Of a stretch of DNA of 64,000 bases, positions 4,087-60,411 are shown piece by piece. Numbering within the stretch: position 1 is the first letter of the stretch; the number at the start of each line of letters is the position of its first letter. The translations under genes and the position numbers were made by a program. Origin of the DNA: Cyanobacterium sp. Dongsha4 (GTDB lineage Bacteria; Cyanobacteriota; Cyanobacteriia; Cyanobacteriales; Cyanobacteriaceae); the NCBI RefSeq assembly GCF_036345015.1, contig NZ_CP084098.1, positions 2,927,326 through 2,991,325 on the forward strand, given 5' to 3'. Below the pieces are notes generated by a model. That model was not told where the DNA came from, did not search any database, and was given only the letters and a program-made list of their open reading frames with translations.

Positions 4087-4478
4087 TTTTATTTGGGACT
4101 TGACTTGAGTTCGATATAGAATTTTCGGTTTTGGAAAGGTGTCAGGTATCAGGTTAAAGAATTGATAAAAAACACATCTTTATTGATTTTATTATTTTCA
4201 ATCTTTAGATTAACTAAACAATTTGATTAGAAAATTAAACCTAAAACCTGCAACCAGCAACCTGAAACCTAACCATACCTGAGTTCGATGAAAAAAGTAT
4301 CGAAAAATAAAGCGCCCTCGAGTTATCATCGAGCCAATTTTGGAATAAAAAATTATTAAATTTAGGAAAAACTCATTTAAAATCAATTTATTCAGCTTTT
4401 TTGTCAATAATTATTACTTTTAACTCCGAACTCCGAACTCCGAACTCCGAACTCAAAATTTTGCCTCTCGCTTTTTTC
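4087..4478. repeat. Intergenic repeat spacer with a short tandem array
   Basis: This 392-bp spacer between two convergent genes holds no credible gene. From about 4101 to 4292 it matches the repeat at 56390-56602: both start with a CTTGAGTTCGA / CCTGAGTTCGA end, contain TCAGGT-type units followed by GGTTAAAGAATTGA, and carry CCTGCAACC / CCTGAAACC units. Four 7-bp CTCCGAA units lie at 4424-4451. No clear hairpin terminator was seen for either gene. Confidence 0.6.
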
Positions 4479-12065: not shown

Positions 12066-12220
12066 ACAAATCGATGGAGTTAAAAGGGCAAAGGGTGGTA
12101 AAGGGCAAGGGGCAAAGGTAAATAGTTGATAATTAATAACTTCTAACTCTTAACTCCTAACTCATTTCCCTAACTTCTGCAACCTGCAACCTGAAACTTG
12201 ACACCTCATCCCCCAACTGC
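12066..12220. repeat. Intergenic repeat, low-complexity modules
   Basis: This spacer consists of purine-rich GGGCAA-type units, then AATAGTTGATAATTAATAAC, then CTAACTC and CAACCTG units. The same modules in the same order occur at 31812-31984, so it appears to be a partial member of the window-wide intergenic repeat family. No gene was seen. Confidence 0.6.
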
Positions 12221-13558: not shown

Positions 13559-13734
13559 GAGGAATTTACAATTTAGAGTTTGGAGTTTAAAGCTATAGTA
13601 ACTAAACTTTGTTCGATATAAAATTTATAAAATTTTCGGTGGTGTAAGAAAAGGGCAATGAGTGAATAGTGAATAGTTGATAGGAAAAAAATTCTGACTC
13701 CAGACTCGGTGACTTCTAGTTATTACTCATTTTT

Positions 13735-25589: not shown

Positions 25590-27247
25590 GACTTATTAAT
25601 TATAATTTATCATGGGAACGAAATCGATATTCTCTATTTGCTCGTCAGTGGGATATTACGATTACTTTTTTACAATTTTCTTGTTTATTATTAATAGATT
25701 TTATCAGCAAAAACATTAGCAGTTCACAAAAGAAAAAAAGAGCAAGATGGTTAGTAAAAAAATTAATTAAGTTAGGTCCTACTTTTATTAAAATTGGTCA
25801 GGCTTTGTCCACTCGTACCGATCTAATTCCTTTAGAATATGTGGAAGAATTTAGTCAATTACAAGATCGTGTTCCTCCATTTTTATCAGAAGATGCGATC
25901 GCACTTATTGAGTTAGAATTAGGGGATAATATTGAGACTATTTTTGGAGAGTTTGAACGTGTACCCATTGCGGCGGCAAGTTTAGGGCAAGTTCACAGAG
26001 CCAAATTAAAAACGGGAGAGAAAGTAGTTGTTAAAGTTCAAAGAAGGGGATTAGAGCAACTATTTCAATTAGATTTTAAAGTTTTAAAAATTTTAATTGG
26101 CATTGGAAATCAGTTTATTCCTAGTTTTAGAAAATATGAGTTAAATCTTATTTATCAAGAGTTTTTTGAAATTTTATTTGCAGAAATAGATTACTTAAAA
26201 GAAGGAGAAAATGCCGATAGATTTCGTTTCAATTTTCAAAAAGAATCTAAAATAATTGTTCCCAGAGTTTACTGGCAATACACCACAAAGAAAATATTAA
26301 CCCTAGAATATTTACCCGGTATTAAAATTAATGATAAAGAGGCTTTATTAGAAAAAGAAATCCCCATAAAACCCTTAATCGAGCTAGGAATTTGTACATA
26401 CTTAAAACAACTATTAGAAGATGGTTTTTTTCAATCAGACCCCCATCCCGGTAATATGGCTGTAAATGATGAAGGTGCAATTATTTTTTATGATTTTGGG
26501 GCAATGGCAGAGGTGAAGGGATTAGCAAAAGAGCAGATGGTACAAACATTCTTTGCTATGTTACAAAAAGATACAGACCAAGTCTTAAATACTTTGATTT
26601 ATATGGGTTTAATTGAACCAGTGGGAGATATGACAGCCGTAAAGCGTTTAATCAGTTTTTCCCTGACAAGATTTTTAGACAAACCCATTGATGTCAATGC
26701 TTTTAAAGAAATCAGTGCAGAAATCTATGTTATGTTTGAACAACAGCCCTTCCGTTTACCACCCCAATTAACATTTATTATCAAGGCTTTAACCACCTTA
26801 GACGGTATTGCTCGTACTTTAGACTCAAATTATAGTTTACTAGCGGCGAGTCAACCTTTTGTCAGGAATCTCACTCGCTCTGGTAATCCCACTAATATTC
26901 TATTACTGATTGCCAGAGAAGGAAAAAATATTATTCAAAAACAACTATTAAAACCGAGTCGCCTAGAAACCGCTTTTTCTAACTTTCAACAACGCTTAGA
27001 ACAAGGAGAATTACAACTGCGTTCTCGTTCTTTGGAAGCAGAAAGAATCAACAAAAGTATTTACCTAGCTATCAAAACTCTAATTTATGCCTGTTTGAGT
27101 GGTTTTTCTCTGTTGGGAGGCATTTTACTCGCATCAACCTTGTATCATATTTGGGCTTTTATTCTATTTGGATTAACTGGGTTATTCAGTTTGTTTTTGA
27201 TGCGATCGCTCTTTCGCTTAATGGTAGCAGAAAAGCTGTTAAAATAA
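25586..27247 (+). CDS. ABC1/UbiB-family atypical kinase
   Basis: Member of the ABC1 (AarF/UbiB/ADCK) family. The family-specific KxGQ region is FIKIGQALSTRTDLIP (about residues 67-82), followed by the Ala-rich loop AAASLGQVHRA, the ATP-binding lysine in VVVKVQRRGL, the catalytic DPHPGNM and the metal-binding YDFGAMAE. Two hydrophobic segments near the C-terminus (about 490-545) would anchor it in a membrane. In cyanobacteria and plastids such proteins are tied to prenylquinone (plastoquinone, tocopherol) metabolism and stress response; which quinone pathway is involved here is not evident. It overlaps the upstream kinase-like gene by ATGA. Confidence 0.92.
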   Translation: MRLINYNLSWERNRYSLFARQWDITITFLQFSCLLLIDFISKNISSSQKKKRARWLVKKLIKLGPTFIKIGQALSTRTDLIPLEYVEEFSQLQDRVPPFLSEDAIALIELELGDNIETIFGEFERVPIAAASLGQVHRAKLKTGEKVVVKVQRRGLEQLFQLDFKVLKILIGIGNQFIPSFRKYELNLIYQEFFEILFAEIDYLKEGENADRFRFNFQKESKIIVPRVYWQYTTKKILTLEYLPGIKINDKEALLEKEIPIKPLIELGICTYLKQLLEDGFFQSDPHPGNMAVNDEGAIIFYDFGAMAEVKGLAKEQMVQTFFAMLQKDTDQVLNTLIYMGLIEPVGDMTAVKRLISFSLTRFLDKPIDVNAFKEISAEIYVMFEQQPFRLPPQLTFIIKALTTLDGIARTLDSNYSLLAASQPFVRNLTRSGNPTNILLLIAREGKNIIQKQLLKPSRLETAFSNFQQRLEQGELQLRSRSLEAERINKSIYLAIKTLIYACLSGFSLLGGILLASTLYHIWAFILFGLTGLFSLFLMRSLFRLMVAEKLLK

Positions 27248-27351
27248 TTGAGGGCAATAGGCAATTAGTCATTAAACCTGCAACCTACAACCTGACACCT
27301 CTTTCCTAACTCCGAACCCTTATGGGATATTCTTAAATAGAATTGAGGTTA
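27248..27351. repeat. Intergenic repeat fragment ending in GAGGTTA
   Basis: Contains GGCAATAGG, AACCTGCAACC, CCTGACACC and TGGGATATTCTTAAATAGAA, ending with GAGGTTA. The right end matches those at 31955-31984 and (inverted) 51253-51290. The terminal TTA at 27349-27351 is also the stop codon (TAA) of the minus-strand GH13 gene. The left TAACCTGAG end is absent, so the copy is truncated. Confidence 0.6.
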
Positions 27352-31661: not shown

Positions 31662-31984
31662 AAATAATTTATCTGATAACTTACTATAAGGCTTAAACTA
31701 AGATTCGGGGTTTTGTTAAAATAATTAGTTTGTGCCAACATTTAATTATATCTTTCCCTTGTGAGTATTTCTGCTCTTTTGTTTGCTATGTCTAGGAATC
31801 ATGACATTTTAGGCAAAGGGTAAAGGGCAAGGGGCAAAGGGCAAAGGTAAATAGTTGATAATTAATAACTTCTAACTCTTAACCCCTAACTCCTAACTCG
31901 TTTCTCGTTTCTCGTTTCTCGTTTCTCGTTTCTCCCCAATACCCCGACATCTCAATCCGATATTCTTAAACCAAACGGAGGTTA
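31662..31984. repeat. Intergenic repeat with GTTTCTC tandem array
   Basis: The 31812-31984 part belongs to the intergenic repeat family: GGGCAAGGGGCAAAGG, AATAGTTGATAATTAATAAC and CTAACTC units, five 7-bp GTTTCTC units (31900-31934), then CCGATATTCTTAAACCAAAC and the GGAGGTTA end. The terminal TTA (31982-31984) is the stop codon of the minus-strand adaptor gene. 31662-31811 is AT-rich spacer and should include the argZ promoter on the minus strand. Confidence 0.65.
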
Positions 31985-33494: not shown

Positions 33495-33729
33495 TAACCT
33501 GAGTTCTGAATAAATTTTCTTGGTCATGGGCAAAGTTAAAAGGTGCAACGATGCACAGGTGAATAGTTGATAATTAAAAGGTGACAGGTTTCAGGTTTCA
33601 GGTTTCAGGTGTTAGATGTTAGAAAATTTCCGAATTTTTAATTCTCCCTACTCCCTACTCCCTACTCCCCACTCCCCTACTTTTATAAAACCCCTAACTC
33701 CTAACTCCTAACCCCGAACCCCTACTTTC
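33495..33729. repeat. Intergenic repeat copy A (TAACCTGAG end)
   Basis: Begins TAACCTGAGTTCTGAATAAA and carries AATAGTTGATAATTAAAAGG, three CAGGTTT units, GTTAGATGTTAGAAAATTTCC, CTCCCTACTC units, and CTTTTATAAAACCCC. These are identical in order and nearly so in sequence to copies B (46894-47167) and C (51253-51525). Its right end (CCCGAACCCCTACTTTCC) has lost the GATATTCTTAAAC/GAGGTTA terminus. It fills nearly the whole spacer between the adaptor and ATPase genes. Confidence 0.75.
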
Positions 33730-40900: not shown

Positions 40901-41772
40901 TGGTAAATAAAAAATGGACAGGAGAAGCGATCGCAAAAAGGAAAGACGGTACAACTTTTCCTGAAGAATTATCTTTAACTCTTACTGATAAAGGATACTT
41001 AATTTGTGTTTGCCGTGATATTACCCAAAGGAAAAAATCAGAAAAACAATTAAGGGAAGCATTAGCCAAAGCCGAAGAAGTCAACGAATTGAAATCTCGA
41101 CTAATTACCCTTACTAGCCATGAATTTCGTACTCCCTTAACAGTTATAGCCTCTTCTGTGGGGATTTTAAAGAGTTTTGGACATAAACTTTCCCCTGAAC
41201 AACAAGCAGAACACTTTAATACTATAGAAACTTATATTCAACATACCACTCAGTTACTCGACGATATATTATTAATTAATCGTTCAGAAGCAAAACAATT
41301 ACACTATCAACCCCAACAAATAAATATTAGGGATTTTTGTCTAAATCTAGTCAATCATTTACAAAATACCTATGGTGAATATCAAATCATATTTGAAATA
41401 AATAACGAATCATCCCTCAAAGAAGAGCAATATAATAGACTTTTAGATCCTAAATTATTAACTCAAATTTTGACGAATCTTGTATCTAACAGTGTCAAAT
41501 ACTCTGCTGTTAATAGTCGTATCGATGTTTTACTAACTGTAGAGGCTAAAAATATCATCTTGCAGGTTAAAGATAGGGGTATTGGTATTTCTGTCAATGA
41601 CCAAAAATACTTGTTTGATACTTTTTATCGTGGAGATAATGTGGGCAATATTCAAGGCACGGGATTAGGACTCCCTATTGTTAAGGAATGTGTTAACCTT
41701 TGCAAAGGTACTATTACTTTTACAAGTGTTATCAATCAGGGAACAACTTTTTCTATTAATATACCTTGTTAA
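37957..41772 (+). CDS. CBS-REC-PAS hybrid histidine kinase
   Basis: A soluble kinase of 1,271 residues from the ATG at 37957. In order: two CBS-domain pairs (about residues 10-150 and 160-305; several GI(V)T(E)RD motifs such as GIITERDL and GIVTERDI), a receiver (about 315-450; Asp in LVILDLNLPDSQG), a coiled coil (460-540), four PAS domains with PAC tails (about 545-1025), then the dimerisation region (LTSHEFRTPLTVIAS) and ATPase (NLVSNSVKYS, DRGIGIS, GTGLGLPIV). CBS pairs usually bind adenine nucleotides, so the protein may join energy state, phosphorelay input and PAS cues. AAGG adjoins the ATG too closely to be a good Shine-Dalgarno site; TTG 37882 is an alternative start. No dedicated output regulator is adjacent. 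Confidence 0.88.
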   Translation: MFNNTEQKSIKKNSYDIKDMIDYQPLTVSSETKLSAVIALMSEYNNHCSLPSAHGDECQRFSRGSCVLVVEKNKVKGIITERDLVRLTVQKINFNLVCAKEVMTTQVITLSEDSFTDIFVALSILRQNKIRHLPILNENKELVGIVNSETLRQSLTPNDLLKVKLVKEIMVFPVVTAFLDSSVEELATLMNFHQISCVIIVGNQGVNLPMIPLGIVTERDILQYKALGLNLSETKAKKVMSSPVFSISPSASLWELQKQMETKKVRHLVCCNKKGELVGVVTQTSLLRSLDPIEMTNVIELLHDRIHKLENQLKVFTQFVNHEQSLEKIKSVNILMIEDSITTVEILKRRLGLESDYKFDVIHYSTLREGRDAIAVYGRNYFNLVILDLNLPDSQGLNTLETFKQNFPEIATIVLTAEYQKKVALNAIKKGAQDYLIKSIFLGQKNIEQDCFILPLLTAIERQEKENKIEKQNIEIYLANEKLKHSLNENKQIKKTLEDFNLLLDNRVKQRTSTLRKIVDKLNQEIKERKQIEKNLTLSENKLDRIINDASDGILIVDSKGTIVFANAEATRILQKADENIIGNQFDIPIIDNQPLDLTLVDKNGQQLFEEVRVSSTEWEGDSANLVILRNINERIEYEKNLAENEEKFRQLAENIEEVFYIFDIQENQLIYLSSVFKKIWGLSEQKVLENPAIWLKSIHPLDYKNLTNHWLTNPELIYDYYRENTEVEYRIIRPDKQIRWINQKSFIVKNKQGSIYRIVGILTDITERRQTQEYLQQLNRELKDKVDLHTKELLDFKSALDQSAIVTISDPDGNITYVNDQFCQISGYSQEELLGENHRIVNSHYHPDEFWQEFWMTISQGNIWRGEVKNIKKNGDYFWVDMVVVPFFDHYQTISQYIAIRYDITARKEAQEIIERNLATFDVAADGLAILEGDRYIYMNRVHLEMFGYSGMEDLPENNWRCLYETDQVNLIETQIFPLLMVNKKWTGEAIAKRKDGTTFPEELSLTLTDKGYLICVCRDITQRKKSEKQLREALAKAEEVNELKSRLITLTSHEFRTPLTVIASSVGILKSFGHKLSPEQQAEHFNTIETYIQHTTQLLDDILLINRSEAKQLHYQPQQINIRDFCLNLVNHLQNTYGEYQIIFEINNESSLKEEQYNRLLDPKLLTQILTNLVSNSVKYSAVNSRIDVLLTVEAKNIILQVKDRGIGISVNDQKYLFDTFYRGDNVGNIQGTGLGLPIVKECVNLCKGTITFTSVINQGTTFSINIPC

Positions 41773-41983
41773 CTTGAGTTCGGGATAAATTTTCCTAAGT
41801 ACAGGACAAAAATTTTAAACAGTCAATAAGTTGAAAACTACTATCCATTTTATCTCAAATACTCTTTACCTATTTTATTATTCATATTAATCTGCTAAAC
41901 GGTCAAATCTACCTCAAGTAAATGGGTCTTATGATACCATGTCACAAATATTATATTTTTAAAATTATAAAAAAAGTCGATCA
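41773..41983. repeat. Partial intergenic repeat end
   Basis: Directly after the kinase stop comes AACTTGAGTTCGGGATAAATTTTCC, which matches the left end of the intergenic repeat family. No right end is evident, so it is a truncated copy; the rest of the spacer is unique AT-rich DNA with the promoter for the next gene. Confidence 0.5.
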
Positions 41984-46700: not shown

Positions 46701-47425
46701 CTAATATTCTACTCCAAATCAAGGAAATTAATTAACTTATACCTTGAATGACTTTTTTGTCAAAAACTAAGTTTCATTACAGTTTAGCATTATTTTAAGC
46801 CTATTTCCAAGAATATTTTTCATGGGGTGCAATTGACTTTGAATTTTATTAATTTAAACGAATTGTATGAGAAATTTGAGATAAAATGATATGTAACCTG
46901 AGTTCGAGATAAATTTTCGTCATTAACTCATAGATGAAAAGGGCAAGGGGCAAAGGTAAATAGTTGATAATTAAAAGGTGACAGGTTTCAGGTTTCAGGT
47001 TTCAGGTTTCAGGTGTTAGATGTTAGAAAATTTCCGAATTTTTAATTCTCCCTACTCCCTACTCCCCACTCCCCTACTTTTATAAAACCCCTAACTCCTA
47101 ACTCATTTCCCCCCAATCCCTTAACAACTTGATACCTACTCGATATTATTAAACTGAACTGGGGTTATGTACTTAAAAAACTCCCATGTCATGTTTAAAA
47201 GTAAACTAGACCAAATCCTAGAAAATAAGCGTTTTCAACTAGAATCAAGGAGAAAGTATTTGTTAGAGAAAACCTAGCACTAGTTGGATAATTATGGTTC
47301 GGTATTATGGACAATTGAAGATTAATTTAGACAAATCATTATCTTTGTTCCCTTTATTGATTAATGATTTACAAATGTTTTTACATAAATTAGTCTCTGA
47401 CACTTATATGAATTCTAATTCAAGA
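46701..47425. other. Spacer upstream of gyrB
   Basis: 725 bp that holds repeat copy B (46894-47167) and about 450 bp of unique AT-rich DNA: 46701-46893 next to the gyrB start, expected to include its promoter on the minus strand, and 47168-47425 beyond the convergent 2Fe-2S gene's end. No tRNA or protein gene was identified. Confidence 0.45.
46894..47167. repeat. Intergenic repeat copy B, complete MITE-like element
   Basis: A 274-bp element from TAACCTGAGTTCGAG to GAACTGGGGTTA. The ends are imperfect inverted repeats (TAACCTGAGTTC against TAACCCCAGTTC, 10/12), with TA at each tip. Internal modules: GGGCAAGGGGCAAAGG, AATAGTTGATAATTAAAAGG, four CAGGTTT units (46982-47009), GTTAGATGTTAG, CTCCCTACTC units, CTTTTATAAAAC and CTAACTC units. 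It has no ORF. Copy C is the same element inverted. Confidence 0.8.
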
Positions 47426-47662
47426 CTAATATTTTTTGATAAATTTTTGTATGATTGCCAATGTGCAATTTTCTATCAGCTTTTCTTCTGGTAATATAAG
47501 GGTAACTGGACCATTCCCACACCTTCCAAAACAATATTTAGTGGTAAATTCCACCGTATTGTTAGCATTTTCCTTGATATATTTGATTAAATGATTTGCT
47601 CCATCTCGACGACAAGACTTCCCGTTACAAATAACTATAAGTCTATTTTTCTTATTCATCAT
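47426..47662 (-). CDS. Thioredoxin-like 2Fe-2S ferredoxin-domain protein
   Basis: A 78-residue protein of the thioredoxin-fold 2Fe-2S family (NuoE C-terminal/Shethna-like). The four ligand cysteines are in CNGKSC (Cx4C) and YCFGRC (Cx3C), with GNGPV following as in other members. Its ATG overlaps the last 11 bases of the upstream hybrid kinase, so the two are translationally coupled and probably act together. This suggests a redox link for that kinase, but nothing in the sequence proves it. The protein is small, has no transit signal and should be cytoplasmic. Confidence 0.85.
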
Positions 47663-51195: not shown

Positions 51196-51631
51196 TTAAA
51201 GAAATATATTAAAAAATTTTGTTATATAAATAAAGGGGGATATTAATATTATTAACCTCACTTAGGTTTAAGAATATCGGGTAGGTGTCAAGTTGTTGGG
51301 GGATTGGGGGGAAATGAGTTAGGAGTTAGGGGTTTTATAAAAGTAGGGGAGTGGGGAGTAGGGAGTAGGGAGAATTAAAAATTCGGAAATTTTCTAACAT
51401 CTAACACCTGAAGCCTGAAACCTGAAACCTGTCACCTTTTAATTATCAACTATTTACCTTTGCCCCTTGCTCTTTACTCTTTTTATTATTACTCATAGAT
51501 GAAAATTTATCTCGAACTCAGGTTATTATTAGTAAATTTTGAATTTCTCATTGATGCCTAATTCCTAATTTTATATCCCCAAGTAATCACTATTTTCTTG
51601 ATTTTAAATCAATAATTAAATGGTTTATATC
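51196..51631. other. Spacer holding repeat copy C
   Basis: 436 bp between a hypothetical gene and the SufA/IscA gene, mostly repeat copy C (51253-51525). The remaining 106 bp to its right and 57 bp to its left are AT-rich unique DNA. Nothing else was seen. Confidence 0.4.
51253..51525. repeat. Intergenic repeat copy C (inverted relative to copy B)
   Basis: A 273-bp element reading in the opposite direction to copy B. On the minus strand it runs TAACCTGAGTTCGAG ... CCCGATATTCTTAAACC ... GAGGTTA, flanked by TA at both tips. The core is essentially identical to B except for three rather than four CAGGTTT-type units. It lies between a hypothetical gene and the SufA/IscA gene. Confidence 0.8.
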
Positions 51632-56389: not shown

Positions 56390-56602
56390 TAACCTGAGTT
56401 CGACATAAAATTTTCAGTGAGGGTAAGTTGTCAGATGTCAGGTGTTAGGTTAAAGAATTGACAAAAAAAATATATTAATTGATTTTCCTGTTTTCAATTC
56501 TTGGATAAAATAATATAATCTTATGAAAATTAAACCTGCTACCTATTACCTGATGCCTGAAACCTACCTCAGTCGGATATTCTTGCATAGAGCAGAGAGT
56601 TA
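56390..56602. repeat. Intergenic repeat, second subfamily
   Basis: Begins TAACCTGAGTTCGACATAAA and ends near CGGATATTCTTGCATAGAGC and GAGAGTTA. Its interior, GATGTCAGGTGTTAGG, then GTTAAAGAATTGACAAAAAA, TTGATTTT, and CCTGATGCC / CCTGAAACC, agrees with the repeat at 4101-4292 rather than with copies A-C, so the ends are shared but the interior differs. Confidence 0.65.
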
Positions 56603-56611
56603 GGGGAAGAA

Positions 56612-58759
56612 TTATAGAGTTTTTTTCTTAGGTTCTTCCGAATCCTGATGATAATAAGAATAGTTGTAATAGTAATAATAATTATTTTTGTCTGTAGTGA
56701 AACAATTGGGAATTAGACCTAATATATTAACTTCAGCTAATTCCAAGGATTCTTTGGTAATTGATAACAGAGAAGTATTCACTTTTCCTTGTCTAACTAC
56801 TAGCAACATTCCATCGCTCATTCGCGCCAAAATTTGAGCATCGGCGGCGACGCTTACAGGGGGGGCATCAAGAATAATTAGATCATATTTTTGTCTGAAT
56901 TCTTGAATTAAATAAGCCATTTGAGGTGAACCAATCAAGGCAACAGGATTATTTTTATTATTCCCTGCAAATAAAACGTCAAGGTTTTCTTGTTCTTTAA
57001 TAATATACTGGGAAAAGTTGGATGGTTCATCTGTGCTTAATAAATCACCTAAACCTTTTTGCTCACCTTTTTCTGTCCATATTTTTTTCTGCCCTGGTTT
57101 ACGTAAATCTGCCTCAATAAGTAAAACTCGATTGCCTAACCCTGAAGCTGCGATCGCCATATTTGCGGCAATAGTTGATTTTCCTTCTGCTGTGACGGAA
57201 CTAGAAATAGTTACAACTTTAAGATTATTTTTAGGGCTACCATCTTGAATACCGATAAATTTAATGGCAGTACAAAGGGTACGGAATGATTCACTGATGG
57301 GGGAAGAAGGATGATCTCTTACAGGAAGATCACTGGTGATATTCTGCTTAATACTTTTACTTTTTCTGAAAAAATTGGGGATAGTTGCTAAGATGGGTCG
57401 ATCGAAGTATTCTTTTATTTGTTCTACATCTCTAACGCCTTTATCTAGTTGTTCTAATAGATAAGCAACCAGTGAACCCATCAAAATTCCTGCTAAAAAA
57501 CCTTGTATTAAGTAAGTATTTTTCCTTTCAATGGCTGGTGTGGTGGGAATTTTCGCCAATTCAACAAAACGGACGTTACCTTGAGTATTATTGAGAGCAA
57601 TTTGGGAATCTTGATAATTTTTGATGAGACTTTGCAGTATTTCGTCTTTTGTCGTTAATTCTCTTTGTAACTGTTTTTGTTCAAATTCGAGAGATGGTAA
57701 TGTATCGACTCTTTCTCTATAGGTATTGATTAAATCATTCAGTGAATCTAATTGAGCTTCTAGGCTTTTAATATTTCTTTCGGTTTCTGCGTATTGTACT
57801 AATAGTTGACTTTGAGAAGCTCCGGGTTGATATATATTATTTTCGTTTATATCTTGTTGAGTAACATTATTTTGGGGAGAAACATTTTTTAAATATTTTT
57901 CTAATTGTTCTTCTAAAATTTGTTTTTCCTTTTCCAGTCTGCTTACTTCAGGATGGCGATCGCCAAATCTTAACTTTTCTTGCTCAATTTTAGTTTCAAT
58001 TCCTTCTAACTGTTGAATAAGAGAACTAACAATCGGAGATTCATTGATAAAGCTAGAAGTAACCGCCGTATCGGAATCAATTTGAAATAGTTTTCTTAAA
58101 TCATCCCTACGAGATTTTTGTGCCGCCAACTGAGCTTTAGTTTCAGCTATTTGGGCATCTAATTCGCTGAGAATTTCTGTGGTTGAACTAGCTTCAGCAT
58201 TAATATCAAGAATACGATTATTTTGCTTAAAATCCTTAATTTTTTCGGCTGTTGCTTCTAATGATTCCTGAGTTTGAGGTATTTGTTGTTGTAAAAACTG
58301 GGCTAACTCTCTTGTTTGAGTTTGTTCTAACTCTTTATCCAGTTTTACATAATTTTCAATCCAAGCGTTAACTATGGCGGCGGCTTTTTCAGGATCTTGA
58401 TCGGTAAAGGATAATTGGATAACGTCAGTATTCTGGGGATTGGTAGCAACTAGGTTTTGTAGTAAATTCTGATTATTAACTTCTGTTCCTAACTGTAAAT
58501 CGTTCCGTACTTGTTCAGCAAACGAGTCCGACTTCATTAAAACAAGATCATTGGTCAAGTTTTTTTCTTCTGAAAGTCCTAATTCGCTAGTAAGACTAGG
58601 AGTGCTAGATTGAAAAACTATTGTTCCATTTGCTCGATATAAAGGAACGGCTTTTCGAGATCTTTCCCATCCCATAATGATAAAAACCACTGCAAAAACT
58701 AAGGAAGCGGGAAGCCACCTTTTTTGTATTATTTTCAGATAAGCTATTAGTTCTTCCAT
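56612..58759 (-). CDS. Wzz/BY-kinase exopolysaccharide co-polymerase (Wzc-like)
   Basis: A 715-residue inner-membrane protein. Wzz domain at the N-terminus with a transmembrane helix (about 16-33), long coiled-coil periplasmic part (about 130-400), a second helix (about 425-445), then a cytoplasmic bacterial tyrosine kinase. Kinase motifs: Walker A VTAEGKSTIAANMA, A' LLIEADLRKP, B LIILDAPPVSVAAD. The C-terminus has a Tyr cluster (NYYYYYNYSYYHQ) that is the usual autophosphorylation tail. It regulates chain length and export of capsule or exopolysaccharide. Related duplicated fragments follow at 58821-59099 on the same strand. ATG start at 58757-58759. Confidence 0.93.
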   Translation of the reverse strand: MEELIAYLKIIQKRWLPASLVFAVVFIIMGWERSRKAVPLYRANGTIVFQSSTPSLTSELGLSEEKNLTNDLVLMKSDSFAEQVRNDLQLGTEVNNQNLLQNLVATNPQNTDVIQLSFTDQDPEKAAAIVNAWIENYVKLDKELEQTQTRELAQFLQQQIPQTQESLEATAEKIKDFKQNNRILDINAEASSTTEILSELDAQIAETKAQLAAQKSRRDDLRKLFQIDSDTAVTSSFINESPIVSSLIQQLEGIETKIEQEKLRFGDRHPEVSRLEKEKQILEEQLEKYLKNVSPQNNVTQQDINENNIYQPGASQSQLLVQYAETERNIKSLEAQLDSLNDLINTYRERVDTLPSLEFEQKQLQRELTTKDEILQSLIKNYQDSQIALNNTQGNVRFVELAKIPTTPAIERKNTYLIQGFLAGILMGSLVAYLLEQLDKGVRDVEQIKEYFDRPILATIPNFFRKSKSIKQNITSDLPVRDHPSSPISESFRTLCTAIKFIGIQDGSPKNNLKVVTISSSVTAEGKSTIAANMAIAASGLGNRVLLIEADLRKPGQKKIWTEKGEQKGLGDLLSTDEPSNFSQYIIKEQENLDVLFAGNNKNNPVALIGSPQMAYLIQEFRQKYDLIILDAPPVSVAADAQILARMSDGMLLVVRQGKVNTSLLSITKESLELAEVNILGLIPNCFTTDKNNYYYYYNYSYYHQDSEEPKKKTL

Positions 58760-58820
58760 GGAAAATGAAAATTATTTATTAAAAACTATGAAACATATAA
58801 TAATAAAAATACTTTTTATT

Positions 58821-58931
58821 CAGAAAAACCCACTTTATCAATAACCTATAAATATTTGGTGATGACAATTTTTTTGTGAAATAGTCACAAAAGTACTGTC
58901 TGGAATTGTATCCTATTTCTCGACAAATCTG
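58821..58931 (-). pseudogene. C-terminal GT4 fragment (duplication remnant)
   Basis: On the minus strand this encodes REIGYNSRQYFCDYFTKK and continues in frame without a stop past the matching end of the gene. The intact GT4 has QEMGYNARRYFCDYFTKK at the same place (59143 gene). It lacks the rest of the gene and is fused on its upstream side to BY-kinase-like sequence. Confidence 0.75.
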
Positions 58932-59099
58932 TAATAAATTCCGATTATTAACTTACGTACCTAAGTGTAAATCATTCCGTACTTGTTCAATCAATGAGTC
59001 TGATTTAGTTAAAGTTAAAATCATTGGTCAATTTTTTTCTTCTGGAGAACATAGTTTGTTGGCAATACAAAGAATTACATTAAAAGACTATTATTCCAT
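58932..59099 (-). pseudogene. BY-kinase 5' fragment (duplication remnant)
   Basis: 58932-59044 matches nt 58460-58572 inside the intact kinase gene (for example TTCCGTACTTGTTCA and ATCATTGGTCAA). 59092-59140 matches the sequence at and around its start codon (TTCCATGGAAAATGAAAATT). About 180 bp between the two parts is deleted. The remnant ATG (59097-59099) is followed at once by stops, so it is dead. Confidence 0.75.
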
Positions 59100-59142
59100 G
59101 GAAAATGAAAATTGTTTATTAAAACAATGAGAAATATAATAA

Positions 59143-60411
59143 TCAAAACAATACTTTTTGTTTAGAAAAACGCACTTTATCAATAACCTGTAAATATTTG
59201 CTAATGGCAATTTTTTTCGTGAAATAGTCACAAAAGTACCGTCTGGCATTGTATCCCATTTCTTGACAAAGTTGTTCGTTATTACTCAAATCAAGAAGAA
59301 AATTTGCTAGAGCCTCGCTTTCACCGTTACGGAAACTTTTTCCACAATTAGCAGTAGTCATTAATTCGTTTAAAAAGGAATTTTCTGGGCAAATTGTAGC
59401 TACGGCTTTTCCCGCCGCAAGGGTTGAATATAGTTTACTTGGCGCTACTACTCCAGCCATATTTTCACCCATAGAAATTAAAGACACATCACAAGCAGTT
59501 AAGGAGTAAGGTAAAACTTCTCTTTTTTGATAAGGAAGAAATAAAAAGTTTTGCAACCCCATTTGATTAATTTTTTCTTGTCCCCATTTTTGTTTACTGC
59601 CACCACCAATGAAAACAAACTGAATTTGACCTTGATATTCTTTAAGCAAACAAGCGGCATTAACAATTGTTTCCATATCATGACAACGTCCCATATTACC
59701 AGAATAGATAATGGTGAATTTTTTATCTAAACCGTATTGTTTGGCAAACCAGTTGTCTTCTTTCTTGATTGGTTTGATAAAGTCGCCATCTGCCCAATTA
59801 TCGATAATAGTTATTTTATGTTCACAAGGAGGATAAATATCAGCAATTAAACTTTTCATGGGTTGAGATAAAACAATTATTTCATCTGCAAATTGCCATG
59901 TTTTTTGATTGAGTTTTTGCCAAAGCACTATTATGGGATGTTTTTCTGGTAATATTCCCAAAGCTGTAACGACGTTGGGATAAAGGTCATAGATTAAGCA
60001 GATATATTTTTTTTTCCAAATTAAATGAGCTAAGTAACCTAGCCATGTCATAAAAGCGGGAGCAGTAGTAACAATTAATAAATCTTCTTTTTTTTGATGA
60101 CGGAGAGTATGTAAAAATGCTCTTATGAAAAAAAGTGTACTATTTCCAATCTTAGCAAGTATTCCTTGAGGTAACAAATTTGTAACGCGCGATCGCCTGA
60201 TGTTTAATCGACCTTTTTTTTCGTTTCTAGGGGCTTTTTGAATATCGGTGGCGTATCCCGGTTGTCCGCTAAAAACTCTTATTCTGACACCTTCTCTACT
60301 AACCTCAGTGGCTAACTCCTCTATAAATTGCCCTGTAGCCGCATAATCTGGGGGATAAAACTGGTTAAAAATAAGAACTCTAAATAAATCTTCTGACGGG
60401 GAGTAACCCAT
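59143..60411 (-). CDS. Glycosyltransferase family 4 (WcaI-like)
   Basis: A 422-residue GT-B-fold glycosyltransferase. The N-terminal acceptor domain starts VLIFNQFYPPDYAATGQFIEE, characteristic of WcaI/colanic-type GT4 enzymes. The C-terminal donor domain has IIYSGNMGRCHDMETIV and the nucleotide-sugar motif (MGENMAGVVAPSKLYSTLAAG) with the E/S-type residues. It is cytoplasmic or peripherally membrane-bound and adds a sugar to a lipid-linked exopolysaccharide unit. The sugar is unknown. It lies between the BY-kinase and the GT2 remnant on the same strand. Confidence 0.9.
   Translation of the reverse strand: MGYSPSEDLFRVLIFNQFYPPDYAATGQFIEELATEVSREGVRIRVFSGQPGYATDIQKAPRNEKKGRLNIRRSRVTNLLPQGILAKIGNSTLFFIRAFLHTLRHQKKEDLLIVTTAPAFMTWLGYLAHLIWKKKYICLIYDLYPNVVTALGILPEKHPIIVLWQKLNQKTWQFADEIIVLSQPMKSLIADIYPPCEHKITIIDNWADGDFIKPIKKEDNWFAKQYGLDKKFTIIYSGNMGRCHDMETIVNAACLLKEYQGQIQFVFIGGGSKQKWGQEKINQMGLQNFLFLPYQKREVLPYSLTACDVSLISMGENMAGVVAPSKLYSTLAAGKAVATICPENSFLNELMTTANCGKSFRNGESEALANFLLDLSNNEQLCQEMGYNARRYFCDYFTKKIAISKYLQVIDKVRFSKQKVLF

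Follow-up and report, generated by a model that had tools for sequence, protein, structure and literature searches.

The intergenic repeats of this locus raise the question of whether they are mobile elements and, if so, which transposition system moves them and how their modular interiors arose. The window analysed here is the whole stretch of 64,000 nucleotides from Cyanobacterium sp. Dongsha4, whose genome (4.32 Mb) is referred to as G000; G001 is another species of this genus, and G002 belongs to another genus of the same GTDB family. One G000 contig matches plasmids of Cyanobacterium aponinum at 85% identity over 42% of the query. An initial annotation had described MITE-like repeats at 33495-33729 (copy A), 46894-47167 (copy B) and, inverted, 51253-51525 (copy C), with partial members at 12066-12220, 27248-27351, 31812-31984, and 41773-41800. 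All of these were recovered, with the boundaries displayed in Table 1, together with members that had been missed.

Copies B and C share 89% identity over 280 alignment columns, and the interior of copy A aligns without gaps with those of C (97% over 118 nt) and B (91% over 108 nt). The longest stop-free stretch is 31 codons in A and 40 in both B and C, in line with the earlier statement that the repeats carry no ORF. A whole-genome search with copy B, which had been proposed as a check, gave at least 46 matches in G000 at E <= 0.001 (40 of 564 first-look candidates scored). The repeats are short (about 180-300 bp), carry no transposase and are multicopy, as MITEs are. Elsewhere in the window, several blocks of 64-84 nt are duplicated about 340-470 bp apart at 58458-59275, around the ORFs 56612-58759 and 59143-60411.

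Table 1. Repeat members, target-site duplications and core sequences in the window
Feature	Positions	Strand	Remarks
Copy B, full-length MITE (ACCTGAGTTCGAG...CTGGGGT)	46896..47165	+	both ends present
Copy B, left target-site duplication TATGTA	46890..46895	+	direct reading
Copy B, right target-site duplication TATGTA	47166..47171	+	direct reading
Copy C, full-length MITE	51255..51523	-	both ends present; G001 site element-free
Copy C, left (minus-strand 5') target-site duplication TAATAATA	51524..51531	-	direct reading
Copy C, right (minus-strand 3') target-site duplication TAATAATA	51247..51254	-	direct reading
Copy A	33497..33729	+	left end intact, right end gone; G001 orthologous site with same left end
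Member F: AAAGGGC-type and CTAACTC-type arrays plus right end, no core	31812..31984	+	G001 interior differs here
Member E, right end kept	27248..27351	+	vertical inheritance; 86% to G001 ortholog
Member D: array module lacking MITE ends	12097..12163 (initially 12066-12220)	+	
Left-end remnant	41770..41800	+	
Further member, left end TAACCTGAGTTCGACATAAAATTTTC	56390..56590	+	missed initially
Two members of other subfamilies, nested or side by side	4101..4460	+	missed initially
Further member	~13603-13720		missed initially
Core in copy B (130 nt)	46959..47088	+	alignment of 12 G000 and 1 G001 copies
Core in copy C	51332..51454	-	alignment of 12 G000 and 1 G001 copies
Core in copy A	33562..33691	+	alignment of 12 G000 and 1 G001 copies

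The elements run from ACCTGAGTTCG... to ...CGAACTCAGGT and lie inside target duplications of 6-8 bp. Read inward, their consensus ends of about 17 nt are ACCTGAGTTCGGGATAA on the left and ACCTCAGTTCGGTTTAAG on the right, and terminal inverted repeats are common to the copies. With up to two mismatches, TAACCTGAGTTCGA was found eight times in the window versus 0.35 expected; with up to one mismatch, it occurs 89 times in the G000 genome versus once for the reversed pattern. Disagreement of the ends across copies had been named as grounds for rejecting the family, and the ends agree across many copies. Past the terminal 10-20 nt, the numerous subfamilies have little in common. One uniform subfamily, starting with CCTGAGTTCGATGAAAAAAGTATCG (L033, L051, L068, L071, L104, L107, and window 4278-4455), ends in a GAGTTCG heptamer array that looks like a tandem expansion of its own inverted repeat, and this heptamer may have arisen from the MITE end.

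Pairing of the inverted ends showed elements bounded by ACC and GGT, with 6-8 bp repeated in the flanks. All pairs found with up to two mismatches in 11 nt were retained, nested and doubtful ones included. Exact duplications of at least 5 bp flank 28 of 35 paired elements in G001, versus 8.0% of mis-paired flanks, and 20 of 39 in G000, versus 3.5%; the 19 G000 pairs without such a duplication are old, nested or wrongly paired. Further examples are AACCAAT at L051 and AAGTAAT at L071. A first pairing, with CCTGAG ends and TNA or 9-bp duplications, was abandoned because the ACC...GGT boundaries, as in IS982 copies, give consistent lengths of 6-8 bp.

These duplications bear directly on the type of element. 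Copies B and C had been described as having imperfectly inverted ends flanked by TA, and the family had been assigned to the IS630/mariner type; the ends are as described, whereas TA is only the inner edge of the longer duplication. IS630/mariner-type MITEs with a TA target duplication would explain why TA usually adjoins the ends. However, a duplication of 6-8 bp rules out a TA-only target, and the ends match IS982 elements in sequence and in left/right asymmetry, which leaves the IS630/mariner assignment with a negligible likelihood.

The TA of the duplication and the first A of the element often form the TAA stop codon of the adjacent frame, as at window positions 41770-41772, 31982-31984, and 27349-27351 and at L053, L054, L064, L073, L094, L098, L101, and L110. 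Around 122 G000 ends, 43 long open frames have their stop within 60 nt, and in eight of them it coincides with this TAA, the commonest offset; this count leaves out the three window cases.

Concerning mobility, at least four copies in G001 are 100% identical (rounded) to a 247-bp query, the query itself included, and at least 21 are at least 94% identical over query positions 1-247 (40 of 974 candidates scored). These copies are partly non-independent, since six places with identical flanks carry a single insertion embedded in a larger repeat. Counted by distinct flanks, at least 17 sites carry full-length copies that are at least 90% alike, and 15 of the 17 show exact 6-8 bp duplications. In an alignment of nine G001 copies with their flanks (seven sites), identity stops exactly at ACC/GGT. 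The larger repeat (GATGATTGTAGGACGATTAGGC...) carries the MITE insertion at L212, L213, L221, L277, L285, and L301, and is present in G000 (L109, L289) without the MITE.

The search for empty sites in a relative, also proposed earlier, revealed occupied/empty differences between the two species, copy C among them. The G001 site of copy C lacks the element and reads TAATAAT-TAC-TAATAAT; its 10 extra bp make it an imperfect empty site, and they may stem from excision, as a footprint, or from tandem duplication. At a clean site (L227 versus L086), G000 lacks an element of 208 bp that G001 carries. Another G001 element, at L262:5857-6157, is missing from G000, its flank being an array that varies, and the element at L262:6931-7177 has an empty G000 counterpart with a single TAAGATA, its flank being itself repeated. 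A further presence/absence difference (L123 versus L030) shows no clear duplication and was left out of the tally. The description of the repeats as MITE-like is thus borne out by agreeing ends, the lack of an ORF, target duplications and occupied/empty differences. Among the matches scored, the G001 element was detected in 7 of 15 genomes and three genera; outside the genus, nearly all of these matches correspond to its right end, approximately positions 180-247.

These observations also bear on the idea that the repeats are immobile heptanucleotide arrays that share short flanking motifs by chance. Most of the interior is indeed heptamer array, and the ends are missing in some members, but the paired inverted ends, the duplications, the occupied/empty sites and the abrupt stop of identity at ACC/GGT in G001 make this idea hardly credible. 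It is refuted for the shells and may apply to members that consist of array only, 12097-12163 for example.

As for the transposition system, the transposase searches covered genes with DDE_Tnp_1 (PF01609) and IS982 transposases. Of the 21 DDE_Tnp_1 matches in G000, 11 are one near-identical 964-bp IS982 element, identified by aligning the IS copies with each other. A search for CCTGAGTTCG beside DDE_Tnp_1 genes, allowing up to one mismatch, did not pick up this IS982, whose ends read TTTTGG. Its 292-aa protein matches NF033520 (E 7.5e-81, 271 bits versus a cut-off of 130) and also PF13612. Its ends, read inward, are ACCTCAGTTTTGGATAAG and ACCTGAGTTTTGGTTAAG, and exact 6-8 bp duplications surround nine of the 11 copies, with the A..T ends placed alike (L134 and L137 have none). 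Both the duplication length and the left/right asymmetry GGATAA / GTTTAAG are common to this IS982 and the MITE. The consensus MITE ends agree with those of the 11-copy G000 IS982 at 14/17 and 14/18 positions (three and four positions differ), and with those of one G002 IS982 (ACCTGAGTTCGGGATAAG / ACCTGAGTTCGGGTTAAG, duplication TACTTA) at 17/17 and 16/18, while elsewhere in the window no stretch matches the two MITE ends at more than 12/17 and 13/18.

Of 15 genomes from the GTDB family, 8 contain related IS982 transposases. The G002 IS982 with matching ends has an in-frame stop in its gene. G001 gave no IS982 transposase match at E <= 1e-20 (7 candidates scored), yet the youngest MITE copies are found there; the G001 driver has therefore been lost, has diverged too far, or is missing from the assembly. 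By eye, no IS sequence was seen inside the MITEs beyond the ends, and for this reason the wording preferred here is that they would use IS982-type transposition, rather than that they are deletion derivatives of this IS. The repeats are thus classed as MITEs of the IS982 type, and an IS982 transposase would presumably act on their ends. A 100-bp subfamily (CCTGAGTTTTGGATAAGCTGAA...), at L062:884, L098:282, and L109:750, shares the TTTTGG end with the resident IS982, of which it may be the present-day passenger.

The interior, already recognised as modular, consists of heptanucleotide tandem arrays of the AAAGGGC, AGGTTTC, CTCCCTA and CTAACTC types, and at some sites its history seems to differ from that of the ends. 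Identity at lag 7 is 0.57-0.73 in six window members, versus a mean of 0.28 and a 99th percentile of 0.52 in random 200-mers of the window, elements included (the pieces from E and D fall short of 200 nt). At several similar loci (L055, L062, and L098), the AGGTTTC/AGGTTGC array of one MITE contains a second MITE, by nested insertion or segmental duplication.

The members from position 27000 onwards were compared with G001. Five of them (A, B, C, E, and F) could be compared with both flanks, and two, the left-end remnant (41770) and the further member at 56390, with one flank only. Apart from site C, where the element is absent, the sites are occupied by a MITE in G001. Flank identities between both genomes are 91 and 95% for A, 97 and 94% for F, 95 and 93% for E, and 98% for B, on the left only. 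At site B, the G001 MITE has the same left flank and left end and a different interior. The right side of this site is rearranged, and the sequence that follows the G001 element sits about 490 bp past copy B in G000; the stretch in between, 3' of copy B at window 47172-47657, is missing at the corresponding place in G001.

Within G000, bit scores are 212 for A-C, 209 for A-B and 302 for B-C, and within G001 they are 122 for A'-B', 87 for A'-F' and 80 for B'-F'. The orthologs score 84 (A-A'), 48 (B-B'), 51 (F-F', 51.1) and 112 (E). Hence A and B resemble their paralogs more than their orthologs in both genomes. F shows this preference in G001 alone, as in G000 its scores with C (51, precisely 51.1) and B (50) tie with that of its ortholog, and E prefers its ortholog.

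Such a pattern could also be produced if an element was lost and another MITE was then inserted at the same place, which would account for the strong interior differences at A, B, and F and for the rearranged right flank of B, with its additional 490 bp or so in G000. However, the left end of copy A, TAACCTGAGTTCTGAATAAATTTTCTTGGTCATGGGC, is identical in both species and absent from the other ends listed, so the insertion at this site is shared and older than the interior difference. Loss and re-insertion is consequently an improbable explanation. We infer from these alignments, short of proof, that interiors were exchanged through the arrays. As only four MITE sites are shared, the comparison is suggestive only: E is vertical, F is tied in G000, and B directly shares only its left flank.

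The sequence held in common by the interiors of A, B, and C is a core that is more conserved than its surroundings. Its 79-nt form has a mean identity of 99.6% (minimum 98.6%) among 12 G000 copies, and its 130-nt form 99.4% among 11 copies, gaps ignored in both cases. These are the best 12 of the at least 46 matches of copy B, the other 34 being weaker or partial. Around the core, the copies are unalignable (about 40% in a forced alignment). By eye, it sits in full MITE shells in B, C, L004, and L011, in one-ended shells in A and L007, and without recognisable MITE ends in L003, L006, L008, L010, and L012, with L005 doubtful. The L012 core lies between ORFs. G001 has one full core copy, at the position orthologous to L010; its wide core is 100% identical to seven of the 12 G000 copies (gaps ignored), and its flanks share about 95% identity with the ortholog. 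The G001 counterpart of L003 consists of heptamer array and lacks the core, and that of L012 has a shorter variant. The core junctions lie within heptamer arrays, but not at a fixed point. Array members that lack the core carry exact arms beside these junctions, of up to 34 nt on the left and 24 nt on the right in F, and of up to 37 nt on the left and only 4 nt on the right in D.

Small dispersed repeats of 21-27 nt, some of them structured, were reportedly described in Nostoc by Elhai and co-workers in 2008 within heptamer arrays or minitransposons. The core of 79-130 nt could be a second, smaller mobile element that enters heptanucleotide arrays, like an enlarged version of those repeats. 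This would fit its 12 near-identical copies, five of which (those named above) have no recognisable MITE ends, and the perfect match of the G001 wide core to seven of the 12 G000 copies despite flanks at about 95%. On the other side, neither terminal repeats nor a target duplication was seen at the core, no RNA structure was found, and the junctions vary within the heptamer arrays as recombination would predict. With at least 79 nt and no structure, the core also departs from the size and structure reported for the Nostoc repeats. A separately mobile core is thus rather unlikely, and it is the main rival to ectopic gene conversion via the arrays, which, suggestively only, accounts for the core facts with the fewest assumptions.

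The structure predictions are also relevant to the alternative that the repeats are RNA elements or terminators under selection, as their intergenic position and the strong conservation of the core might indicate. In window 27000-57000, no Rfam family reached its gathering score. Compared with shuffled sequences, copy B folds worse (z +2.1), a G001 copy only slightly better (z -1.2), and the core no better on either strand (z +3.1 and +1.0), so that a selected RNA function is very unlikely. Copy B gave one plasmid record, an uninformative 49-base match in the tandem part to a Salmonella plasmid, and no match among phages; the core pattern had no match in viral contigs.

Taking these data together, the repeats are probably non-autonomous miniature elements of about 180-300 bp that move, or once moved, by IS982-family transposition, with some interiors perhaps overwritten later. 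What was observed directly comprises the ends, the target duplications, the occupied/empty sites, the young G001 copies and, within the GTDB family, IS982 elements whose ends are identical or similar. A transposase would recognise the ends of about 17 nt, and insertion would produce the 6-8 bp duplications. After insertion, some interiors may have been replaced by others from elsewhere in the same genome, which is the weaker step, most likely through ectopic gene conversion with the arrays as anchor. As a result, the ends would be inherited vertically and some interiors would track their own genome. More tentatively, the heptanucleotide arrays might serve as docking sites, where a sequence of 79-130 nt without terminal repeats or duplications of its own is copied genome-wide, overwriting MITE interiors and plain arrays and leaving species-specific, homogenised interiors in vertical ends. 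The repeat family as such is regarded as a genomic parasite.

These findings add an IS982-type MITE to the cyanobacteria. If the exchange is true, the family would offer a countable system for the spread and the within-genome likeness of heptanucleotide repeats, which have been reported since 1990; as vertical MITE ends mark the site, each interior replacement could be scored in strain collections. Such repeats would then also be poor orthology markers, and MITE families would be better defined by their ends than by their interiors. In the literature searched (open-licence papers), neither an earlier description of this family, nor an IS982-type MITE in cyanobacteria, nor separate histories of ends and interiors was found.

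STRR is the name given to the tandem heptanucleotide repeats of cyanobacteria. Such repeats (Mazel et al. 1990, as cited in PMC4692102) resemble the present arrays in their seven-base tandem units, the likeness being one of unit length; unlike them, the arrays described here form the interior of transposable elements. In Porphyromonas gingivalis, BrickBuilt is a MITE with an internal minisatellite and, like the present family, has small inverted ends around a tandem array and an intergenic position. It differs in its 23-nt unit, and its published abstract does not mention an exchange of interiors (PMC4596501).

Among cyanobacteria, Microcystis aeruginosa PCC 7806 has a 187-bp MITE linked to ISL3, with 8-nt repeats and 33 identical copies (PMC11448079). 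As in the present family, its link to an IS rests on the end sequence and the length of the direct repeats. It differs in the IS family (ISL3), in the 8-nt repeats and in its interior, which is uniform because the 33 copies are identical.

The closest elements by transposition type are MITECca01 and MITECca02 of Cardinium cOegib, which derive from ISCca4 (IS982 family), measure about 240 bp and are present in high copy number, mostly in intergenic regions (PMC9769881). Both they and the present elements are non-autonomous, with IS982-type inverted ends and many, mostly intergenic, copies. The Cardinium MITEs retain short IS sequence within their ends, whereas none was seen here by eye; unlike them, the present elements have heptamer-array interiors that differ between species at some sites. 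IS982-type MITEs are therefore known already (Cardinium, PMC9769881), and what is less ordinary in this family is the heptanucleotide-array interior.
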